Program-made: the position numbers and the translations under genes
Part shown: piece by piece, positions 49,404-61,351 of the stretch
How positions within the stretch are numbered: the stretch's first letter is position 1
Layout of the letters: each line of letters starts with the position of its first letter
Notes under the pieces: generated by a model
Databases searched by the model: none
The model's input: the letters and a program-made list of their open reading frames with translations, nothing else
Told to the model about the DNA's origin: nothing
Assembly (NCBI RefSeq): GCF_026011795.1
Contig: NZ_BRVS01000004.1
Coordinates: 248,001 to 312,000 of the forward strand
From: Arthrobacter mangrovi
GTDB lineage: Bacteria > Actinomycetota > Actinomycetes > Actinomycetales > Micrococcaceae
DNA length: 64,000 nucleotides
Direction: 5' to 3'

Positions 49404-50594
49404 ATGATGGAATCTGACGCTGCAGACCGCAGTCTGCGCCGTTCCGACAATAGCCCGCGCGTAGTAGCCCTCCGTGAGAGGCTGCTGCGCGCGGGCGTTT
49501 CCATGGCCCATCTGGCGCCGGATCAGGTTAACGACGCCGCCATCTTCGACGACCATGTCGACGCTGCCGTCCGGACTTTCCAGCAGGCGCGGGGCCTCAT
49601 GGTGGACGGAGTCGCCGGCCCGGAGACTCTGCGGGCTCTCTCGGAGGCACAGTTCAACCTAGGCGACCGCCAGCTTGCCTGGTTCCCAGGCGCAGACGTG
49701 ATCCGCGGAGACGACGTCGCCGAGCTGCAACGACAGCTGTCCTACCTGGGCTTCTACTACGGCCATATCGACGGCGAATTCGGCGAACGCTGCTACTTCG
49801 CCGTGCGTGAGCTCCAGATGAACCTTGGCCTGGAAGTAACGGGAGTCTGCGACGCGCCGCTGATCGGCGCCATGGCCCGCGTCAGCCGGACCATCAGCCC
49901 GAGCCAGGCCTTCTCCCTGCGGGACTACGAACACCTCCATCAGTCCTCGGCCGCACTGAAAGGCCGCGTCGTCTGCCTAGGAGTGGGGCAGGGGTCGGCG
50001 ACGGCCGAACATGCCATCGACAGGGCAAGCGGCAGGGCATTGTCCCAATGGTCCGTGGCATCGGACATCACGCACCGCATCGAAAGCATCCTGTCGGCAC
50101 TCGGCGCCGACGTGACCGTCATCGGGGACACGGCCGAGATGCCCCACGCAGAGCGCACGCGAAGAATCAAGGAATCTAACGCGAGCCTCAGCGTGACAAT
50201 CAACTGTGACTGGTTGGATCAACCGGCGGCTAACGGCATATCAGCCTTCTATTGGGGCAGGCCGGAAACCGGAGAGATCCGTTCTCCCATCGGGCACCGT
50301 GCAGCCGAGCTGGTCCTCAAAGAGGTCCTGGCACGAACGTCCATGACCGACCTTGGTATCCACGGCAGAAGCTGGGATATCTTGCGCATGACGTCCGTGC
50401 CGTCCATTGAACTGGATCTTGGCTACCTCAGCAGCCCTGTCGACAGCGAGCGGCTCGCCGACCCAGTCTTCCGCCAGGTCCTGGCGGATGCCGTAGTCAT
50501 TGCGATTCAGCGGCTCTACCTCTTGGAAGACGAGGATGAGCCGACCGGCACGCTCGCTCTCGACGACGTCCTACGCTTCAATCCCGGCCTCTGA
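49404..50594 (+). CDS. cwlM: CwlM-like peptidoglycan-binding protein with degenerate amidase domain
   Basis: A 396-residue protein with two peptidoglycan-binding domains (VDAAVRTFQQARGLMVDGVAG near residues 52-75; LGFYYGHIDGEFGERCYFAVRELQ near 115-140) and a C-terminal amidase_3 fold (187-375). The zinc/catalytic sites are changed: DPGHGG reads GVGQGS (Gln196 for His), SIHAN reads TINCD (Asn267 for His) and the last Glu is Asp338. Enzymatic activity is therefore unlikely. In mycobacteria the syntenic CwlM regulates MurA instead of cutting the wall, and a similar role is inferred. No signal peptide; cytoplasmic. The ATG at 49404 has no clear ribosome-binding site. Confidence 0.85.
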   Translation: MMESDAADRSLRRSDNSPRVVALRERLLRAGVSMAHLAPDQVNDAAIFDDHVDAAVRTFQQARGLMVDGVAGPETLRALSEAQFNLGDRQLAWFPGADVIRGDDVAELQRQLSYLGFYYGHIDGEFGERCYFAVRELQMNLGLEVTGVCDAPLIGAMARVSRTISPSQAFSLRDYEHLHQSSAALKGRVVCLGVGQGSATAEHAIDRASGRALSQWSVASDITHRIESILSALGADVTVIGDTAEMPHAERTRRIKESNASLSVTINCDWLDQPAANGISAFYWGRPETGEIRSPIGHRAAELVLKEVLARTSMTDLGIHGRSWDILRMTSVPSIELDLGYLSSPVDSERLADPVFRQVLADAVVIAIQRLYLLEDEDEPTGTLALDDVLRFNPGL

Positions 50595-50737
50595 GATCCT
50601 CCCTAGGGTAGTTGCGACTCACTCTGATGCACGCGCAGTCAGCTTCCGACATCGCCCCGAAGAAGTGACCATCCCGTAGGGGAAACTGCAGGCCGCTTGG
50701 AGGCTGCGAGGGCTGCTGGATCGCTTGCAGTTGCTCT

Positions 50738-50751
50738 GTTCCACGTGAAAC
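50738..50751 (+). other. parS site 1
   Basis: GTTCCACGTGAAAC, one base from the perfect palindrome, preceded by T. It lies 143 bases after the cwlM stop and is the outermost site. Confidence 0.9.
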
Positions 50752-51415
50752 GCTGATCGTTCAGCTGCACATGGCTCCGTAGTATCAGAATGCGGATGGC
50801 CTCTCTGGCGAGTGGAAGGCATCTTCTGACGGGAAATCCGCGGAATTCCCTTTGGTCCTTACAGGCACGGTCGCCTTCATGGACGCACTCGGTACGGCCC
50901 TTTGATACACCTACTTCCCGTTTACACATCGGGCTGTCTCGCAACTCCGCCTGCTTGGGTGCATCAGAGCCACGTCGTTGATCTGAGCAGAAACCGCTAT
51001 CTAGCTGCTTTTTGCTTGATCTACCCTTTATCAGTCCCGCTACACAAGCAGGGGTTTACTGGTCGAACGCAAAGTAGCGCCACAGCGGGACGCAACCAAA
51101 CAATGGTCCGCCTTCTGGAACGCGAACATATACGAGCGTGGGCAGCTTAAGATCAAGATCATGATCGCGACAGACAATGGGTCAGCCAGTTCATAGGACG
51201 CTTGAGCCCGGGAGACGCACTAGCGATGTCATCCCGCTATCGGCTTATCCGCCCAGACGTGTCAACTCCGAATCCCTGCCATATAGGCGCAAAAGTCCCG
51301 AAAGGAACAGCCCTGGAGGAGTCACGGTCAGCGCGAGAAGAGGAGCGGCCTGCGCGAATCAATGGCGCAGACCCACCGGGTTCGACAAAAACCTTTGGCT
51401 CTCGTCGATTCCGGC

Positions 51416-51429
51416 GTTTCACGTGGAAC
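51416..51429 (-). other. parS site 2
   Basis: GTTTCACGTGGAAC on the plus strand, i.e. the consensus variant GTTCCACGTGAAAC on the minus strand. Confidence 0.9.
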
Positions 51430-51848
51430 GCGCAAAATCACTCCACGTCCGCCCGTAGGATCGCATCAGGAACTAGCAAGCGAATGTCACCGACACCTTT
51501 TTGCTGTTTCTGCCGGGGGCTGCCCCTAGATAGGGCTTCCACAGACGCGTCTTAGCCTGTGGCGACGACGAAAGTCGCCCCATCAAACCCCTTCAGAGTA
51601 CGTCCGGCGCGCCCGCGAAAAGCTACCGTGATTTGTCACTGCCGGCTACTCATCGAAGTGGCGAAAGGCCATCGCACTGATAACGGCGCGTGACCCGAAG
51701 GAGAGGGGTCTACTGGACCAGATATCGGTCAGCGGTACACGTACAGCATGCCCGGGTTCTCGGAGCCTGTTCGGTCAGGCCATGAAAAACTCGGGCTCAG
51801 CGGACTGCGAACAAGCGATCCATAAGGGCAGCACGGTCCCGTGGTCCA

Positions 51849-51862
51849 GTTCCACGTGAAAC
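51849..51862 (+). other. parS site 3
   Basis: GTTCCACGTGAAAC, exact copy of the local consensus. Confidence 0.9.
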
Positions 51863-52319
51863 CACCGCGCCAGAGAAGCCGGCATAGGCGGAAGGCATCG
51901 TAGGCGTGAGCGGACTGCCGGCGATCAGCTCGACCCAATTCCGTCAGCAGTGACCGGTCGGAAGCGACGCCGCAACTTTAGCTGCCCGAGCTAGGTCAGT
52001 GAAGCATCCGCCAGGGTACATGCTCGGCTTGCTAAGAGGACCGTAGTGCCGTCGTGCGTTCCAGTGGGCTTCGAACGTGCATATCACAGACGATTGCGTA
52101 CGTGCGAGTGATTTCCCTGCGCCTATTCACCATCGGATCGAAAATCGGTCTGCCACTGCGTGTATCTATCGGGCGAAGAAGCAAAACATGAGTATCGTCC
52201 TTCACCCGCGCCAGGACGATCTATCGCCCGTCCGTTTCGGTGGAGCAGAAGCGGTCTGCACGAGGAAGACCTCGCACTGACTAGTCCCGGACCCATCCTT
52301 CTTGAACGCAAGGCGGCCC

Positions 52320-52333
52320 GTTCCACGTGCAAC
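52320..52333 (+). other. parS site 4 (one-base variant)
   Basis: GTTCCACGTGCAAC, differing from the local consensus at position 11 (C for A); probably a weaker site. Confidence 0.75.
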
Positions 52334-52595
52334 TTGGAGGCGCCCACGCTGGGACCATGAACGGGTGCGACCGGAACCCCTGCAACAGGTCACTTGGCGC
52401 GCGCCGTCCAGAGCATGCGTCGCACAGAGCTCAGGCCGCTTAAAGAGCGGATGGTCCGACGGTTGCCCGCCAGCCGGAGCTTTTGGACGCTCGTCCGTTG
52501 TGCACATCCACGGAGCTGTCGAACTCTGCACCCGCAGCGGGCCACTCCGCTCGCGGGCAGTCGTGCTGACTACGCGCCTCAAAGTTTTAGTGGCT

Positions 52596-52609
52596 GTTCC
52601 ACGTGAAAC
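52596..52609 (+). other. parS site 5
   Basis: GTTCCACGTGAAAC, exact consensus, flanked by T on both sides. Confidence 0.9.
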
Positions 52610-53496
52610 TTTGCACCTGCATGGCATACAGCTACGGCACACAAGGCCACGACGAAGCCAGCGTCGTCATTTACATATTCGTAGCCCGATTCTCGCGGCG
52701 GAAGATCGTGAGTAGGCCGGCCCGACTGATCATGATCCATGCGCCCAGTTGTGCATAAAACGATGCACCTATTCGCCGGGAGCGCTCTGGCACCGTCCGA
52801 GTCCCGGTAGGGGCACGACGACGAGTGTTGTAGGAACATGGATGAGTCCTGACGCCATGGACCAACCACCACAGCTTAAGCGAGCACTCCCTAGAAGCCG
52901 AAGGTTCCTTGACTCTTGACACGGGATCGGCCCGACTTAGCCATGTCGATCGGACATTACTTCGGATGATTCGGTCGCCATGCCGTGCCGCCTAGTCCCA
53001 TCGGGTCAAAGCTCTTCGACTGGCCAGTGCCGAGTGAAATGGCCATGGTCAGGTGAAGGCTCAGCAACTCTCCGGCTCAAGGAGTAGATCCTGCCGGTGA
53101 CGGAGCTGCTAACCAAGCTCTGTGCCCTTGCGACCGCGACAACTCAGGGAGAGGGCGAAAGTGCTGTGTAACGAAACTAGGTGGCAATGCACCGGATATG
53201 CGATTTGCAGCATAGTCGGACTCGGAATGACCTGGGTGTGCGCACCGATCATGGCTGAGCAGACCCACTCCCGGATCCACCAACACTAAGAACCCTCTCC
53301 GGCGTGATGCGATGCTGAGCCTATCTGGCGTGGTCTGCCCATGATATCGACCAGTCTTTCTGAGTTCAGCTAGGTCGCACTCGATCAGCAGCCTGCCTAC
53401 AAACCCAACCACCGGGGACGGCTAGTGGCCGAGATCGGATCGGCGGCGGTCGATGCTCACGTTTGTGCTCCACTTGAGCCTGGGATTGTTGGTGCG

Positions 53497-53510
53497 GATT
53501 CACGTGAAAC
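53497..53510 (+). other. parS site 6 (variant)
   Basis: GATTCACGTGAAAC: right half perfect, left half with one change from GTTTCACGTGAAAC. A 10-of-14 match (AAACGACGTGCAAC, 53507-53520) overlaps its right edge. Confidence 0.75.
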
Positions 53511-54001
53511 GACGTGCAACTTTGTTCACTATCGCTGGCGGACGACAGCATCGCTGCTGAGAGGCCCGCGGCGACGGTGTTCCCGACTCGCAGGTTTGAT
53601 AGCTGAGAAATACAATTGCTGTGACTACTCAGTGCCGAGCCCACGCCGTACATCAAGCTGCTGGCGACCCAGCGGGTAGGTCGAGAATGGGGTTGCATTC
53701 GACTTCGAAGCCTGAGGCGTCGGCAAGCATCTACCAGAACTACACCTGGGGCGGCTAGCATCTGCAGTAAAGGAGTTCGGGACGCGGGTCCGTCCCGAAC
53801 ACTACACCTAAGCCCTGCCAGAGACGATTACACCCCCGCACCACTTCGGGCACTGACCACCGCATGAATGCAGTGCAGGTTTCCAGCCTGACCTAGCAGA
53901 GTCATGAATAGCAGACAGCCGTAGTAGTTACATGCCAGGCGCACCTGCTTCTCGTCGCCCTTCCGCTCCGTGACGCAACTACACAGGGCCTCGGCGGCGT
54001 C

Positions 54002-54015
54002 GTTTCACGTGGAAC
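54002..54015 (-). other. parS site 7
   Basis: GTTTCACGTGGAAC on the plus strand, the consensus variant in minus orientation. Confidence 0.9.
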
Positions 54016-54287
54016 CAGCTGGTAAGCCCGCAATGAGCGTCCAATGAACCAACGTCGAGGTCTGCGAGTGCCACTGGACATGGGCCAAGCTGCTGGGTTC
54101 GCGTCTGCTACGCAGGTGAGCCAGTTGAAAAAGCCTGGCTGATCGAAACTTGACCAAATCGGCCACAGCTCGGACGTCGACATCCATCAGACCTGGCAAG
54201 GGCACAGCACCGGAATAACCCACTCGCACGCAACCGGAAAAATCAGTATCGTCGAGACACCTAGGCGACCGATATGCTCCCACAGGC

Positions 54288-54301
54288 GTTTCACGTGGAA
54301 C
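54288..54301 (-). other. parS site 8
   Basis: GTTTCACGTGGAAC on the plus strand, the consensus in minus orientation, 286 bases after site 7. Confidence 0.9.
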
Positions 54302-54704
54302 GGTGACAAGACCCAACGCGGTCTTACGTCCAGGTGACACTCGACCTCGACTACTGAAGAGTTGAGCCGGAGCCATGGCCCCGAAACTCCTGGCGCCTCA
54401 CCTAGCTACGGATAGACGATATGAAGATCCAGCTGCGTGAAGTCAGCTCTTTGACTCCCGCAGCGCAATAGGAGCCGTTCCCCAGATGATCCGCTCCTGG
54501 AGGCCGTCTATATAGCTGGGCCAATAGGGAGTGGCGTCAGGATCGGCACACGCCGTGGGCTAATGAATAGCGACGACGCTTCGCTCTTCTCCATTTGGAG
54601 CCATCAATCTGACCTGCACCCGCGGACAGTGGGGAGTTTCAGTAAAACCGTCCCCACTAAATTGACGAGGCAATTGACCCTTCCGGGGGAACTGAGACGT
54701 CATC

Positions 54705-54718
54705 GTTTTACGTGAAAC
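54705..54718 (+). other. parS site 9 (variant)
   Basis: GTTTTACGTGAAAC: one base of the central CACGTG is changed (T for C), so affinity may be reduced. Confidence 0.7.
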
Positions 54719-54836
54719 ACCATCACTCTTCGAAGGGAGGATAGACATGCATTGGAAAGCGCGGCACTGAATTCGATCAACGCAACGACGGCGTGATCAT
54801 GTAGTACTTCGGGAGCTTCAGTTGCTCCTAACGCTG

Positions 54837-54850
54837 GCTTCACGTGGACG
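54837..54850. other. Weak parS-like site
   Basis: GCTTCACGTGGACG, 11 of 14 matches to GTTTCACGTGGAAC with the central core intact. Likely a decayed or low-affinity copy. Confidence 0.4.
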
Positions 54851-55001
54851 CGGGCGTGCGTCGCCTCGATCACCCATGGTCCGAAAGGTCTGTACCGCAG
54901 CGGCCCTAGGCATGGGTTGGCCGTCGTGGGGGTGGGAACCCCTCGCTCCAAGACCAGTGATTCGGCCGGCCCGGGCTTGGATGAAGAATTATCCCGAGTT
55001 G

Positions 55002-55015
55002 GTTCCACGTGAAAC
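55002..55015 (+). other. parS site 10
   Basis: GTTCCACGTGAAAC, exact consensus, nearest of the intergenic sites to parB (138 bases from its stop codon). Confidence 0.9.
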
Positions 55016-55098
55016 AGCAACGACCGTTTTCGCAGACCGATCAGCTGCCCTCGCGTGTCCAGGACATCGGCCATGTTCGGTAGGCAAGTCGTGCTACG

Positions 55099-55142
55099 CA
55101 GAAGGAGGGTGGCTCCGCCTGCGCGGAGCCACCCTCCTTCTG
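55099..55142 (-). terminator. Terminator after parB
   Basis: Perfect 20-bp stem (55099-55118 with 55123-55142) and four-base loop, ten bases after the parB stop. It marks the boundary between the parAB operon and the parS array. No long T-run. Confidence 0.8.
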
Positions 55143-55152
55143 CTGATACGAC

Positions 55153-56469
55153 CTAGTTCTCCGAAGGACTCAGCACACCCATAATGCGATTGAGGTCGTC
55201 AACACTAGCGAACTCGATGCTGACGCGTCCCTTTTTGGCACCCAATGTGATCTTCACGTTAGTATCCAGTCGATCCGATAAGGATGTTGCCAGGAAATCA
55301 AGTCTCTCATGGCGGGCACCCAAGCGAGGCTTCGTGTCGCGCTTCGGGCGGCGGAGACTGTCGCTGAGGGCAACAATTTCCTCGGTTGCCCTCACGGATA
55401 GTCCCTCGGCCACAATCTTCTGCGCAAGCTTCTCCATTTCGGCAGGATCCGCCAAGCCAAGCAGCGCACGCGCATGCCCTGCCGAGAGCACACCCGCTGC
55501 TACTCGACGTTGCACCAACGGCGGCAGCTTCATCAGACGGATTGTGTTAGAGACTTGAGGCCGTGAACGACCGATACGATCGGCCAGCTCGTCGTGTGTG
55601 CACCCGAAATCATCGAGCAATTGCTGATAAGCAGCTGCTTCTTCAAGCGGATTGAGTTGGCTTCGGTGGAGGTTCTCGAGTAGGGCATCACGTAGCAGGT
55701 CATCATCCGAGGTAGAACGGATGATTGCAGGCACTGCTTCGAGTCCCGCCTGCTGGGCTGCACGCCAACGGCGCTCACCCATGACCAGTTCATACTCCTG
55801 ATCACTTTGTTCAGACGAAGGCCGAACAACGATGGGCTGAAGGATACCGATCTCCCGCACCGAATGAACGAGCTCGGCCATGTCCTCTTCATCGAAGACC
55901 GACCTGGGCTGTTTGCGGTTGGGGTGAATAGAACCCACAGGGACTTCGGCGAACTTTGCACCCGGGACTTCCACGAGAGTTTCACGTGAATCCTCCGAAC
56001 CGACGTTCGACTGAGCGCCGGCGCCGCTGGGTGCAGCGTTCTCCACTTTCCCACTGAACTGGCCAGGAACCACCGTGCTGGGCGAGGCGGGTTGGAGATT
56101 GGTCTCCGCCTCAAGCGCGTCCGCATTCGCGTCTTCTACCGACTCCTGTGCCGTCTCGCTCTTGCCGACCTTCGCGGCCTTGGCCCCGCCCGCAGTGCCG
56201 CTCTTGCGGCCTCCCGCGGCGGTTCGGCGGGGCCCGCGCAGTACTTCTGCGACCTGAGCGGCTGATGAAGAGGGACGTCCCGCTGCACGGTCAGTCTCTC
56301 CCGTTCCCTCGAGATAGGGACGAGTGCCAGCTGAGGGGAAGAAGACGTCGACAGGCCGCCCCTTCGGAGCGTTCGAACCACCCTCCGTGGTTGAGTCTTC
56401 CGTGGCCGTTGCAGCATTCGGAATCAAAGCGCCTAGGCCCCTGCCCAAACCGCGGCGTTTCTCACTCAT
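55153..56469 (-). CDS. parB: Chromosome-partitioning protein ParB
   Basis: A 438-residue ParB/Spo0J CTPase-clamp protein that binds parS. The N-terminal [12 protein letters not shown] is the ParA-contacting motif. After a long Ala/Ser/Pro-rich linker (~25-170) comes the N-engaging CTPase domain with [12 protein letters not shown] and [14 protein letters not shown], then the helix-turn-helix ([26 protein letters not shown]) and the C-terminal dimerisation segment. Longer than most ParB proteins because of the linker. I chose the ATG at 56469; AGGAAGGATCC lies upstream. The gene itself contains a parS site in the linker. Confidence 0.96.
55979..55992. other. parS site within parB
   Basis: GTTTCACGTGAATC, one change from the perfect palindrome. 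On the parB strand it encodes part of DSRETLV in the linker. Confidence 0.8.
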
Positions 56470-56555
56470 CAAGGATCCTTCCTGAATGCATGCCTACATG
56501 CATTGTTGCGATCTAAGCAGTCATTCTACTGGGGGCACTTGCCACCAATACGGAA

Positions 56556-57539
56556 CTAAACACCGCGTTCTGCTATTTCCGCAGCCGCTTCCTGATACGA
56601 AAGTGCACCGCTAGACGATGGATCGTATGTAATCACGGTTTGCTGGTAGCTGGGAGCTTCGGAAATGCGGACCGACCGCGGTACGACCGCGCTAAGGACT
56701 TGGTCCGGGAAGTGCTCCCGAACTTCCGCGGCCACTTGGGCGGCCAGATTCGTCCTTCCGTCATACATGGTCAGGAGAATGGTCGACACAACCAGTTCAG
56801 CGTTCAGGTGCTTCTGGATCATTTCGATGTTGTTCAGAAGCTGGCTGAGACCTTCCAGGGCGTAGTACTCACACTGGATGGGGATGAGCACCTCTTGGGC
56901 CGCAACGAAAGCGTTGACTGTCAGCAATCCGAGGCTGGGCGGGCAGTCGATGAAAACATAGTCCAAGCGCTCCAGGCCGGCCTTCTCGCGCTCACGCCCA
57001 TAGACTTCGATGGCCCTTCGCAACCGCTGTTCCCTGGCGACGAGAGAGACCAGCTCGATCTCGGCTCCGGCCAAGTGGATGGTTGCAGGAGCGACGATCA
57101 GATTCCTGATATCCGGGCAGGGGGCAACCACGTCCGCGAGCGGCATGTCGTTAATGAGTACATCGTAGATGCTGTCCACCTCAGCGTGGTGCTCTACGCC
57201 CAATGCCGTCGAGGCGTTGCCCTGCGGATCGATGTCCACTACGAGGACGTTGAGGCCCGCATTCGCGAGGGCAGCGGCGAGATTCACCGTCGTAGTCGTC
57301 TTGCCGACTCCACCCTTTTGATTGCTGACAGTCAGCAGGCGGGTCCTGGTCGGCCTTGGCAGGGGACGGCCCCGGAGTCGTTCGCGACGTCGGTTCTCAT
57401 TGGCCAGTTCCCGCGCCAGTGGAGTAGTTTCGTCGATCGTATCCATAACGTTGGGAACCATAACCTCTGCTGTGTGTATATCGCCCATGTCTTGTGTTTC
57501 ACGTGAAACGGCCGATTCATTCACCGCAAACAACCCCAT
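56556..57539 (-). CDS. parA: Chromosome-partitioning ATPase ParA
   Basis: A 327-residue deviant Walker ATPase that moves ParB-bound origins. Walker A with signature Lys is SNQKGGVGKTTTTVNLA, switch region VDIDPQGNASTALG, Walker B DYVFIDCPPSLG. The ~65-residue N-terminal extension carries VSRET, encoded by a parS site; the same peptide occurs in the mycobacterial ParA extension, which supports the ATG at 57539 even though no ribosome-binding site is obvious. Stop is 86 bases from the parB start, so both are co-transcribed. Confidence 0.95.
   Translation of the reverse strand: MGLFAVNESAVSRETQDMGDIHTAEVMVPNVMDTIDETTPLARELANENRRRERLRGRPLPRPTRTRLLTVSNQKGGVGKTTTTVNLAAALANAGLNVLVVDIDPQGNASTALGVEHHAEVDSIYDVLINDMPLADVVAPCPDIRNLIVAPATIHLAGAEIELVSLVAREQRLRRAIEVYGREREKAGLERLDYVFIDCPPSLGLLTVNAFVAAQEVLIPIQCEYYALEGLSQLLNNIEMIQKHLNAELVVSTILLTMYDGRTNLAAQVAAEVREHFPDQVLSAVVPRSVRISEAPSYQQTVITYDPSSSGALSYQEAAAEIAERGV
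57496..57509. other. parS site within parA (perfect palindrome)
   Basis: GTTTCACGTGAAAC, the only fully symmetric parS in the window, encoding VSRET in the ParA N-terminus. Confidence 0.92.
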
Positions 57540-60923: not shown

Positions 60924-61351
60924 GGTGGTTACTCCAAGACGATCGACAGATTTGCCTGATCCCGCGCTGCTCCGGAGGTGCAGGAACGGGATGGCGCTCT
61001 ATTGGGCATCTGAATCAGTGACCCTCAAAAGGCATGCATGAGCGCACGAAACAGACACAAGGACTACATAACGTTAGGGGTTGGGCGGCCTCCCCGTCAA
61101 ATGAGGCGTCCACAACACATTATCCACCAGTGGATTAACACCTGTGGACAACTAGAGCGGTCTGAACCTGCCCGGGCGACGAAGGCGCCCCTTCCCGCCC
61201 TAAACTGCCCGGCTGTCTTATGCCTGATTCATCATCTACCCTTGCAGGAGCACTTTATCCACTGTCTGTGCATAACTCTGTGGATGAAGGCCCCGAATCC
61301 GGTACAACCGGACGTGGAGGTTTATTGCACGACAGTTATGAGGGGTACTAG
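60924..61351. other. oriC part 1: rpmH-dnaA intergenic region with DnaA boxes
   Basis: Non-coding region with DnaA-box-like 9-mers: TTATCCACC (61120-61128), TGTGGACAA (61143-61151, minus-strand TTGTCCACA), TTATCCACT (61255-61263), TGTGCATAA (61267-61275) and TGTGGATGA (61279-61287). It also holds the divergent promoters of rpmH and dnaA. Confidence 0.8.

Follow-up and report, generated by a model that had tools for sequence, protein, structure and literature searches.

The 64,000-nucleotide stretch of the Arthrobacter mangrovi genome analysed here (the window, C4:248001-312000; the genome has 4,426,898 bases, or 4.43 Mb, in 52 contigs) carries, directly behind parB, a block without genes that holds ten parS sites of the ParABS partition system. 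This block is probably the centromere of the chromosome, a dedicated gene-free platform for the predicted loading of ParB at its ten parS sites. It is real, probably functional, and lineage-wide. The parA and parB genes adjoin and encode the expected Pfam domains, the parS consensus is enriched near parAB and oriC, and the same genome has an ScpA gene and an SMC hinge gene, two components of the partner complex SMC-ScpAB. The closest relatives of the ParB encoded here are those of Arthrobacter and its kin. Coordinates are collected in Table 1.

parS sites in the window and the genome

Sites were scored by their mismatches to the consensus GTTYCACGTGRAAC, and those with none or one were counted. 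Ten of them fall within 4.28 kb of the block; seven have the asymmetric form GTTCCACGTGAAAC, in one or the other orientation, and each of the other three has one mismatch. A scan of all 4.43 Mb, proposed as a check in an earlier reading made from the letters alone (the sequence-only reading), found 12 sites of this quality, every one of them in a 6.8-kb part of the window (50738–57509). Base composition, with G+C set at 65%, predicts about 0.04 perfect and 1.6 one-mismatch sites in the whole genome. When two mismatches were allowed, the scan gave 44 forward matches; the 32 with two mismatches are background, since a reversed control pattern gives 36.

The ten 14-mers listed in the sequence-only reading, seven of them as one identical variant, are all present where it placed them. 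The list left out two further sites, at 55979 within parB and at 57496 within parA, and it included a weak copy at 54837, which exists as a match but has three mismatches. Because 6.3 matches with up to three mismatches are expected by chance in the window, this match, probably a chance one, was not counted. parS sites at places similar to the two within parB and parA recur in many relatives; these in-gene sites seem to be kept by the coding sequence too.

The block codes for nothing detectable

The block has a GC-frame spread, a measure of the GC difference between codon positions, of 0.103; shuffled DNA gives 0.084, and the amidase gene and parA give 0.31–0.34. The longest low-periodicity run of the whole window, 50550–55410, is the block itself. 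None of the nine open reading frames of at least 100 amino acids that overlap the block matches Pfam, and an Rfam scan of it returned nothing at gathering thresholds. No sigma-70-like promoter was found in 50400–55300, where shuffles give 1.7, other promoter types being possible in this organism. Pfam, Rfam, GC-frame spread and periodicity together led us to reject hidden genes or RNAs, and bear out the sequence-only reading in its description of a dense, gene-free block beside parAB. An artificial or shuffled origin of this DNA was also considered and rejected, its dinucleotide bias being near that of the blocks of seven relatives.

It is hardly credible that the block has some other main function, as a small RNA, in replication control or as a mobile element, and that its parS sites are passengers. 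Gene-free stretches can hide RNA genes, and a k-mer scan of 28 hand-picked relatives' blocks found the DnaA-box-like sequence GTGGATAA modestly over-represented, in five of the 28. However, the window block has neither an Rfam match nor similarity to phage and plasmid records, it contains no DnaA-box-like TTRTCCAC, and its spacer sequence is not conserved; its neighbours are the amidase gene and parB, so it lacks the setting of a mobile-element centromere. The k-mer scan revealed no convincing shared motif beyond parS. Two to three TTRTCCAC sites lie within the parS blocks of three relatives (L007, L051 and L058).

Table 1. Features of the window (positions are those of the 64,000-nucleotide stretch)
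Feature	Position	Strand	Remarks
Gene-free block	50595..55152		4,558 bases between the convergent amidase gene and parB; ten parS
parS, GTTCCACGTGAAAC	50738..50751	+	0 mismatches
parS, GTTCCACGTGAAAC reversed	51416..51429	-	0 mismatches
parS, GTTCCACGTGAAAC	51849..51862	+	0 mismatches
parS, GTTCCACGTGCAAC	52320..52333	+	1 mismatch
parS, GTTCCACGTGAAAC	52596..52609	+	0 mismatches
parS, GATTCACGTGAAAC	53497..53510	+	1 mismatch
parS, GTTCCACGTGAAAC reversed	54002..54015	-	0 mismatches
parS, GTTCCACGTGAAAC reversed	54288..54301	-	0 mismatches
parS, GTTTTACGTGAAAC	54705..54718	+	1 mismatch
Weak parS-like match	54837..54850	+	3 mismatches; uncounted
parS nearest parB, GTTCCACGTGAAAC	55002..55015	+	0 mismatches
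Perfect 21-bp inverted repeat behind parB	55098..55143		-59.2 kcal/mol, z -10.65
parS within parB	55979..55992	+	1 mismatch
parS within parA near its start, symmetric GTTTCACGTGAAAC	57496..57509	+	0 mismatches
Peptidoglycan amidase gene	49404..50594	+	Pfam Amidase_3, PG_binding_1; convergent with parB, far side of block
parB	55153..56472	-	Pfam ParB_N, HTH_ParB, ParB_C
parA	56556..57539	-	Pfam AAA_31, CbiA
dnaA	61352..62770	+	Pfam Bac_DnaA

Distribution in the family and the order

The family was sampled with one ParB locus per GTDB genus, 31 genera in all (chosen from 70 family genomes), and 40 loci were added from 18 other families of the order (58 order genomes matched ParB). A block was defined as a non-coding run, by the GC-frame measure, of at least 0.9 kb with at least four parS of 0–1 mismatch; this fixed rule is rough, the GC contrast being weak in several loci (parA control 0.24–0.28) and some runs including part of parB. 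It finds a block in 21 of the 31 family genera, 14 downstream of parB and eight between parA and parB (L145 has both), and in 12 of the 40 genomes of other families (six of the 18 families), where six lie downstream of parB and seven upstream of parA. The blocks thus occupy three alternative positions around parAB. Conservation among Micrococcaceae, which the sequence-only reading had proposed to check, holds in that the block is not peculiar to this genome; the gap lengths range from about 1.2 to 8.5 kb.

Weighing against a general need for such a centromere, the same rule finds no block in 10 of the 31 family genera and 28 of the 40 other-family genomes, so the block is not indispensable for ParABS. 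Two loci of the window's own GTDB genus, L019 and L042, have mostly gene-like DNA at this place, and their perfect parS sites are spread over 20–24 kb. In one of these (G005, L019) five of the nine perfect sites lie within 1 kb.

A second set of 80 ParB loci, the window and three added relatives overlaps in part with the genomes sampled above, and the two sets are not added together. The tree includes 82 of these 84 loci, L064 and L073 having too few aligned residues. At least three perfect parS lie downstream of parB in 52 loci; 19 have at least four between parA and the DNA-binding core of ParB, to which this gap was measured because late-starting ParB matches inflate it. None has at least four in both positions, and 11 fit neither type, some through an early contig end. 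The downstream type comprises Arthrobacter sensu lato, Sinomonas, Glutamicibacter and Paeniglutamicibacter; the parA-parB type is found in records of Nesterenkonia, Yaniella, Enteractinococcus, Micrococcus, Citricoccus, Galactobacter, Pseudoglutamicibacter, Kocuria and Zhihengliuella, whose parA-parB gaps, where long enough, also come out as non-coding in GC-frame spread (least clearly in L066). Two or three parS lie in each position in Zafaria and in the A. rhombi group, which suggests that the array moved.

Sites are kept while spacers turn over

In five species pairs the identity of the parS columns (0.98, 0.96, 1.00, 1.00 and 1.00) exceeds that of the spacers (0.69, 0.55, 0.65, 0.57 and 0.49, respectively), the lowest spacer value being barely higher than the 0.45 obtained when unrelated blocks are forced into alignment. 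A site of the first member shares its column with one of the second in 11/13, 7/10, 7/7, 5/5 and 6/7 cases, a comparison in which the aligner may itself draw parS sites together. Across the 43 loci in which parA is present and the downstream gap is closed and longer than 1 kb, the alignable fraction is 0.9–1.0 above 95% parA DNA identity, 0.26–0.64 at 92–95%, and about zero in nearly all pairs below 90%; the exceptions are 0.89 in one pair at 86%, 0.16 in one at 88%, and up to 0.21 below 80%.

The nearest relative, L086, has flanks 91.1% and 88.7% identical to those of the window, with 70% identity at the four-fold sites of the flanking genes. Homology is lost at 50611 and resumes at 55102, and no spacer alignment between the two blocks was found beyond 37 bases at the hairpin. 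Nevertheless, ten sites match in order, and the seven asymmetric ones are co-oriented with none opposed, a result partly built into a score that penalises opposed orientations. In 200 orientation shuffles that score was reached twice, and in 200 random placements once. The corresponding counts are 7 and 1 for L082, and 12 and 9 for L081. Agreement with L002 is weak (26 and 12), that with L003 (124 and 47) and L001 (90 and 103) is no better than shuffled, and the site order of L086 is near chance against L001, L002 and L003; these weaker results count against the centromere reading. Vertical descent with retention of sites is supported by site order only for the window with L086, L082 and L081, and within the L081/L082/L002/L003 group.

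The sharp loss of homology to L086 suggested that foreign DNA had replaced the whole block. This was rejected: site order and orientation agree between the window and L086, and other pairs lose alignability with divergence. No source was found among 395 family genomes, phages and plasmids; the family genomes gave, outside the genome itself, three matches of 26–64 bp. Foreign replacement of part of the block may have occurred; L010 and L011, with 91.8% parA identity, still align over 0.86 of the shorter block.

Of the 66 perfect sites in seven downstream arrays from the clade of the window, 59 combine a GTTCCAC half with a GTTTCAC half; seven are symmetric with T, none is symmetric with C (13.2 expected for independent halves), and the GTTCCACGTGGAAC form is absent from the downstream arrays of this clade. 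The other downstream gaps have 246 of 281 sites symmetric with T and two with C. Because the sites are related by descent, the bias reflects retention and not repeated selection. About 4.0–4.4 kb behind parB, L086 (G009:C2:813000-829000) has parS in 35-bp tandem steps and a self-similar stretch of 0.2–0.3 kb; the number of parS may grow through such steps. Within the blocks of L053, L039, L051 and L054 there are repeats, inverted or direct, that reach 0.3–0.5 kb, in groups with irregular site spacing.

Free turnover of the spacers would also be expected if the block were a passive leftover, in which genes have been lost, only the parS sites are selected, and neither the spacing nor the lack of genes has a function of its own. 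The near-zero alignability of nearly all pairs below about 90% parA identity, the k-mer scan in which only parS stood out, and gap lengths that vary from about 1.2 to 8.5 kb all agree with this account. However, useless DNA is usually deleted in bacteria, and non-coding runs of about 1–6 kb with parS persist beside parAB in 21 of the 31 genera. They recur, furthermore, in alternative positions and in other families, and their sites are spaced more evenly than random in most Arthrobacter groups, as described below. We therefore regard a passive leftover as unlikely, and a dedicated ParB-loading platform as the better description of the block.

Spacing of the sites

The spacing of the ten sites in the window has a coefficient of variation (CV) of 0.41; sites placed at random over this span give 0.87 (P = 0.006). 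Spacing was also analysed in the 43 loci that have five or more perfect sites downstream. L019, L042 and open-ended loci are among them, and the set differs from the 43 loci of the alignability series. The mean CV of these 43 arrays is 0.60, compared with 0.79 for the null, and none of 1000 null sets was as low. The means are 0.53 (null 0.85) in the window's own clade with L045, 0.51 (0.80) in the luteolus/citreus/gandavensis clade, and 0.31 (0.78) in other Arthrobacter; arrays between parA and parB give 0.61 (0.77; P = 0.0095), and twenty representatives hand-chosen across the clades 0.48 (0.79). Among all 63 arrays, 22 are more regular than random (P < 0.05) and four more clumped (P > 0.95); in the comparison of groups the seven arrays from other families were hand-chosen from the 40 loci. 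Low values are found in L150 (CV 0.08, five sites) and, over perfect sites, in L032 (0.13) and L034 (0.14), and L058, a Sinomonas, is also evenly spaced (0.38, P = 0.035).

Several results count against even spacing as a general property. The seven perfect sites of the window taken alone give a CV of 0.50 against 0.80 (P = 0.11). Glutamicibacter and Paeniglutamicibacter are uneven (mean 1.04, null 0.73), as are L019 and L042 (1.22, null 0.73) and the L051/L058 pair (1.10, null 0.80), the last owing to L051 (1.81). Moreover, related arrays are not independent, and kinship inflates these figures. Most Arthrobacter groups thus space their sites more evenly than chance would, and several other groups do not.

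The even spacing could be a relic of tandem duplication of a unit of parS plus spacer, the spacers having since diverged. L086, with its 35-bp tandem steps and self-similar stretch, is in line with such a process; however, its copies are 35 bp apart, not 300–400, and 36 of 45 closed blocks have no self-match at E 1e-3 with parS masked. The self-matches besides L086 are those of L001, L003, L039, L041, L051, L053, L054 and L068, and are mostly single or inverted. This origin is accordingly quite improbable. Avoidance of close parS copies, through steric interference or deletion between copies and with no preferred period, is possible, if somewhat doubtful. Among 250 spacings in the 43 downstream arrays, only 22 are under 100 bp, whereas 53 are at 300–400 bp; median spacing is 202 bp between parA and parB and 344–512 bp downstream in Arthrobacter groups. 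Against this, L150, L032 and L034 seem too regular to be the product of a minimum distance.

Origin region, hairpin and other features

DnaA-box-like TTRTCCAC sequences at 61120, 61144, 61255, 63091 and 63272 lie on both sides of dnaA and probably mark the origin region. The block is about 6–13 kb from them, in agreement with the 6–12 kb from oriC given in the sequence-only reading. That reading also had the block bounded by the parB terminator. The inverted repeat behind parB forms a strong hairpin; it has no U-run and is not listed by the terminator scan, so it is likely, and only likely, the terminator of parB. In 23 of 24 hand-picked loci the 100 bases 3' of parB fold better than the mean sampled block window (L034 is the exception, and L013 only barely passes), and in 10 of the 24 they fold better than the best sampled window. 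Elsewhere in the genome there is a second, distant ParB-like match (G000:C27:78822-79367; 31% identity, query residues 198–390), perhaps from a mobile element.

Comparison with known parS clusters

The published systems considered here and below are represented by excerpts of the papers cited. Compact parS clusters are already known, and the nearest that we found is that of Myxococcus xanthus, where 22 parS are gathered in 3 kb, some 4 kb upstream of parA (PMC3899335). As in the window, a compact cluster of many parS lies near parAB and oriC, and in vitro a 3.12-kb probe that contains the cluster is shifted by M. xanthus ParB. In contrast to the window, M. xanthus belongs to an unrelated phylum, its consensus is TGTTCCACGTGGAACG, and its sites are packed at about seven per kb instead of two. 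The two are set side by side by count and compactness; a gene-free state, even spacing and spacer conservation are not described in the excerpt for M. xanthus (PMC3899335).

Corynebacterium glutamicum, also an actinobacterium, has ten sites (parS1-10) on one side of oriC, nine of them intergenic, and ParB-dependent SMC loading; its single cluster, however, extends over 35 kb, lies 73 kb from oriC, and is not described there as a single gene-free block (PMC7083940). The clusters of C. glutamicum and M. xanthus run counter to the view, taken in the sequence-only reading, that other bacteria usually have their parS sites dispersed in coding DNA across tens to hundreds of kb. In Caulobacter crescentus the strongest parS sites share a 5-kb segment some 8 kb from ori, a comparable arrangement, but they lie within essential genes or genes of high fitness cost (PMC5815017). 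Streptomyces likewise has many parS near oriC, 16–17 in S. venezuelae, and no single gene-free block is described for it in that excerpt (PMC12511625). In the open-licence literature, among the matches listed, there is no description of the parS layout in Arthrobacter or other Micrococcaceae, nor of gene-free, evenly spaced parS arrays or their alternative positions in this family.

Proposed function and implications

Loading of ParB-CTP at parS, its sliding, and ParB-dependent recruitment of SMC have been reported elsewhere (PMC7333895). By analogy, each parS of the block would load ParB-CTP clamps that slide into the spacer as far as the territory of the next site. Fairly even sites in DNA predicted to be free of promoters, RNA polymerase and bound regulators could then give a continuous, dense ParB coat of about 4.5 kb. 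ParA would pull this coated segment soon after the origin is replicated, and the segment might serve as one loading point for SMC-ScpAB. Selection would retain the parS sites and, less surely, the spacing and the absence of genes, and not the spacer sequence.

The reported reach of ParB bears on this model. Caulobacter ParB, tested in Escherichia coli, spreads up to 2 kb around individual parS (PMC5815017). In C. glutamicum, ParB peaks within 2-kb windows to either side of a single parS and reaches up to 16 kb (PMC7083940). Two points are unfavourable to a dedicated platform: one parS suffices in C. glutamicum (PMC7083940), and, given a spread of up to 16 kb from one site, ParB would not stay inside the block.

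More broadly, the blocks may represent a recurrent 'regional centromere' in the order, which we propose tentatively and rate a little below an even chance. It would consist of an untranscribed scaffold with a lineage-specific, even parS pitch (about 200 bp between parA and parB, and about 340–510 bp downstream of parB in Arthrobacter groups) and free turnover of the DNA between sites, and the array would have arisen or moved repeatedly among the three positions around parAB. Its likeness to the regional centromeres of eukaryotes is limited to a function that outlives its sequence. If this is true, spacing would be a selected parameter of ParB-clamp loading, and testable as one. A review of ParABS in 2020 named the variation in parS number, the close siting of parS and the driver of their clustering as open matters (PMC7333895). 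The family provides a natural series for them, with arrays that have and lack even spacing, in various positions, and with sites conserved in fast-diverging spacers. Such a series helps to tell apart constraint on sites, spacing and gene-free length, and allows parS density and pitch to be tested against models of ParB clamps and SMC collisions.

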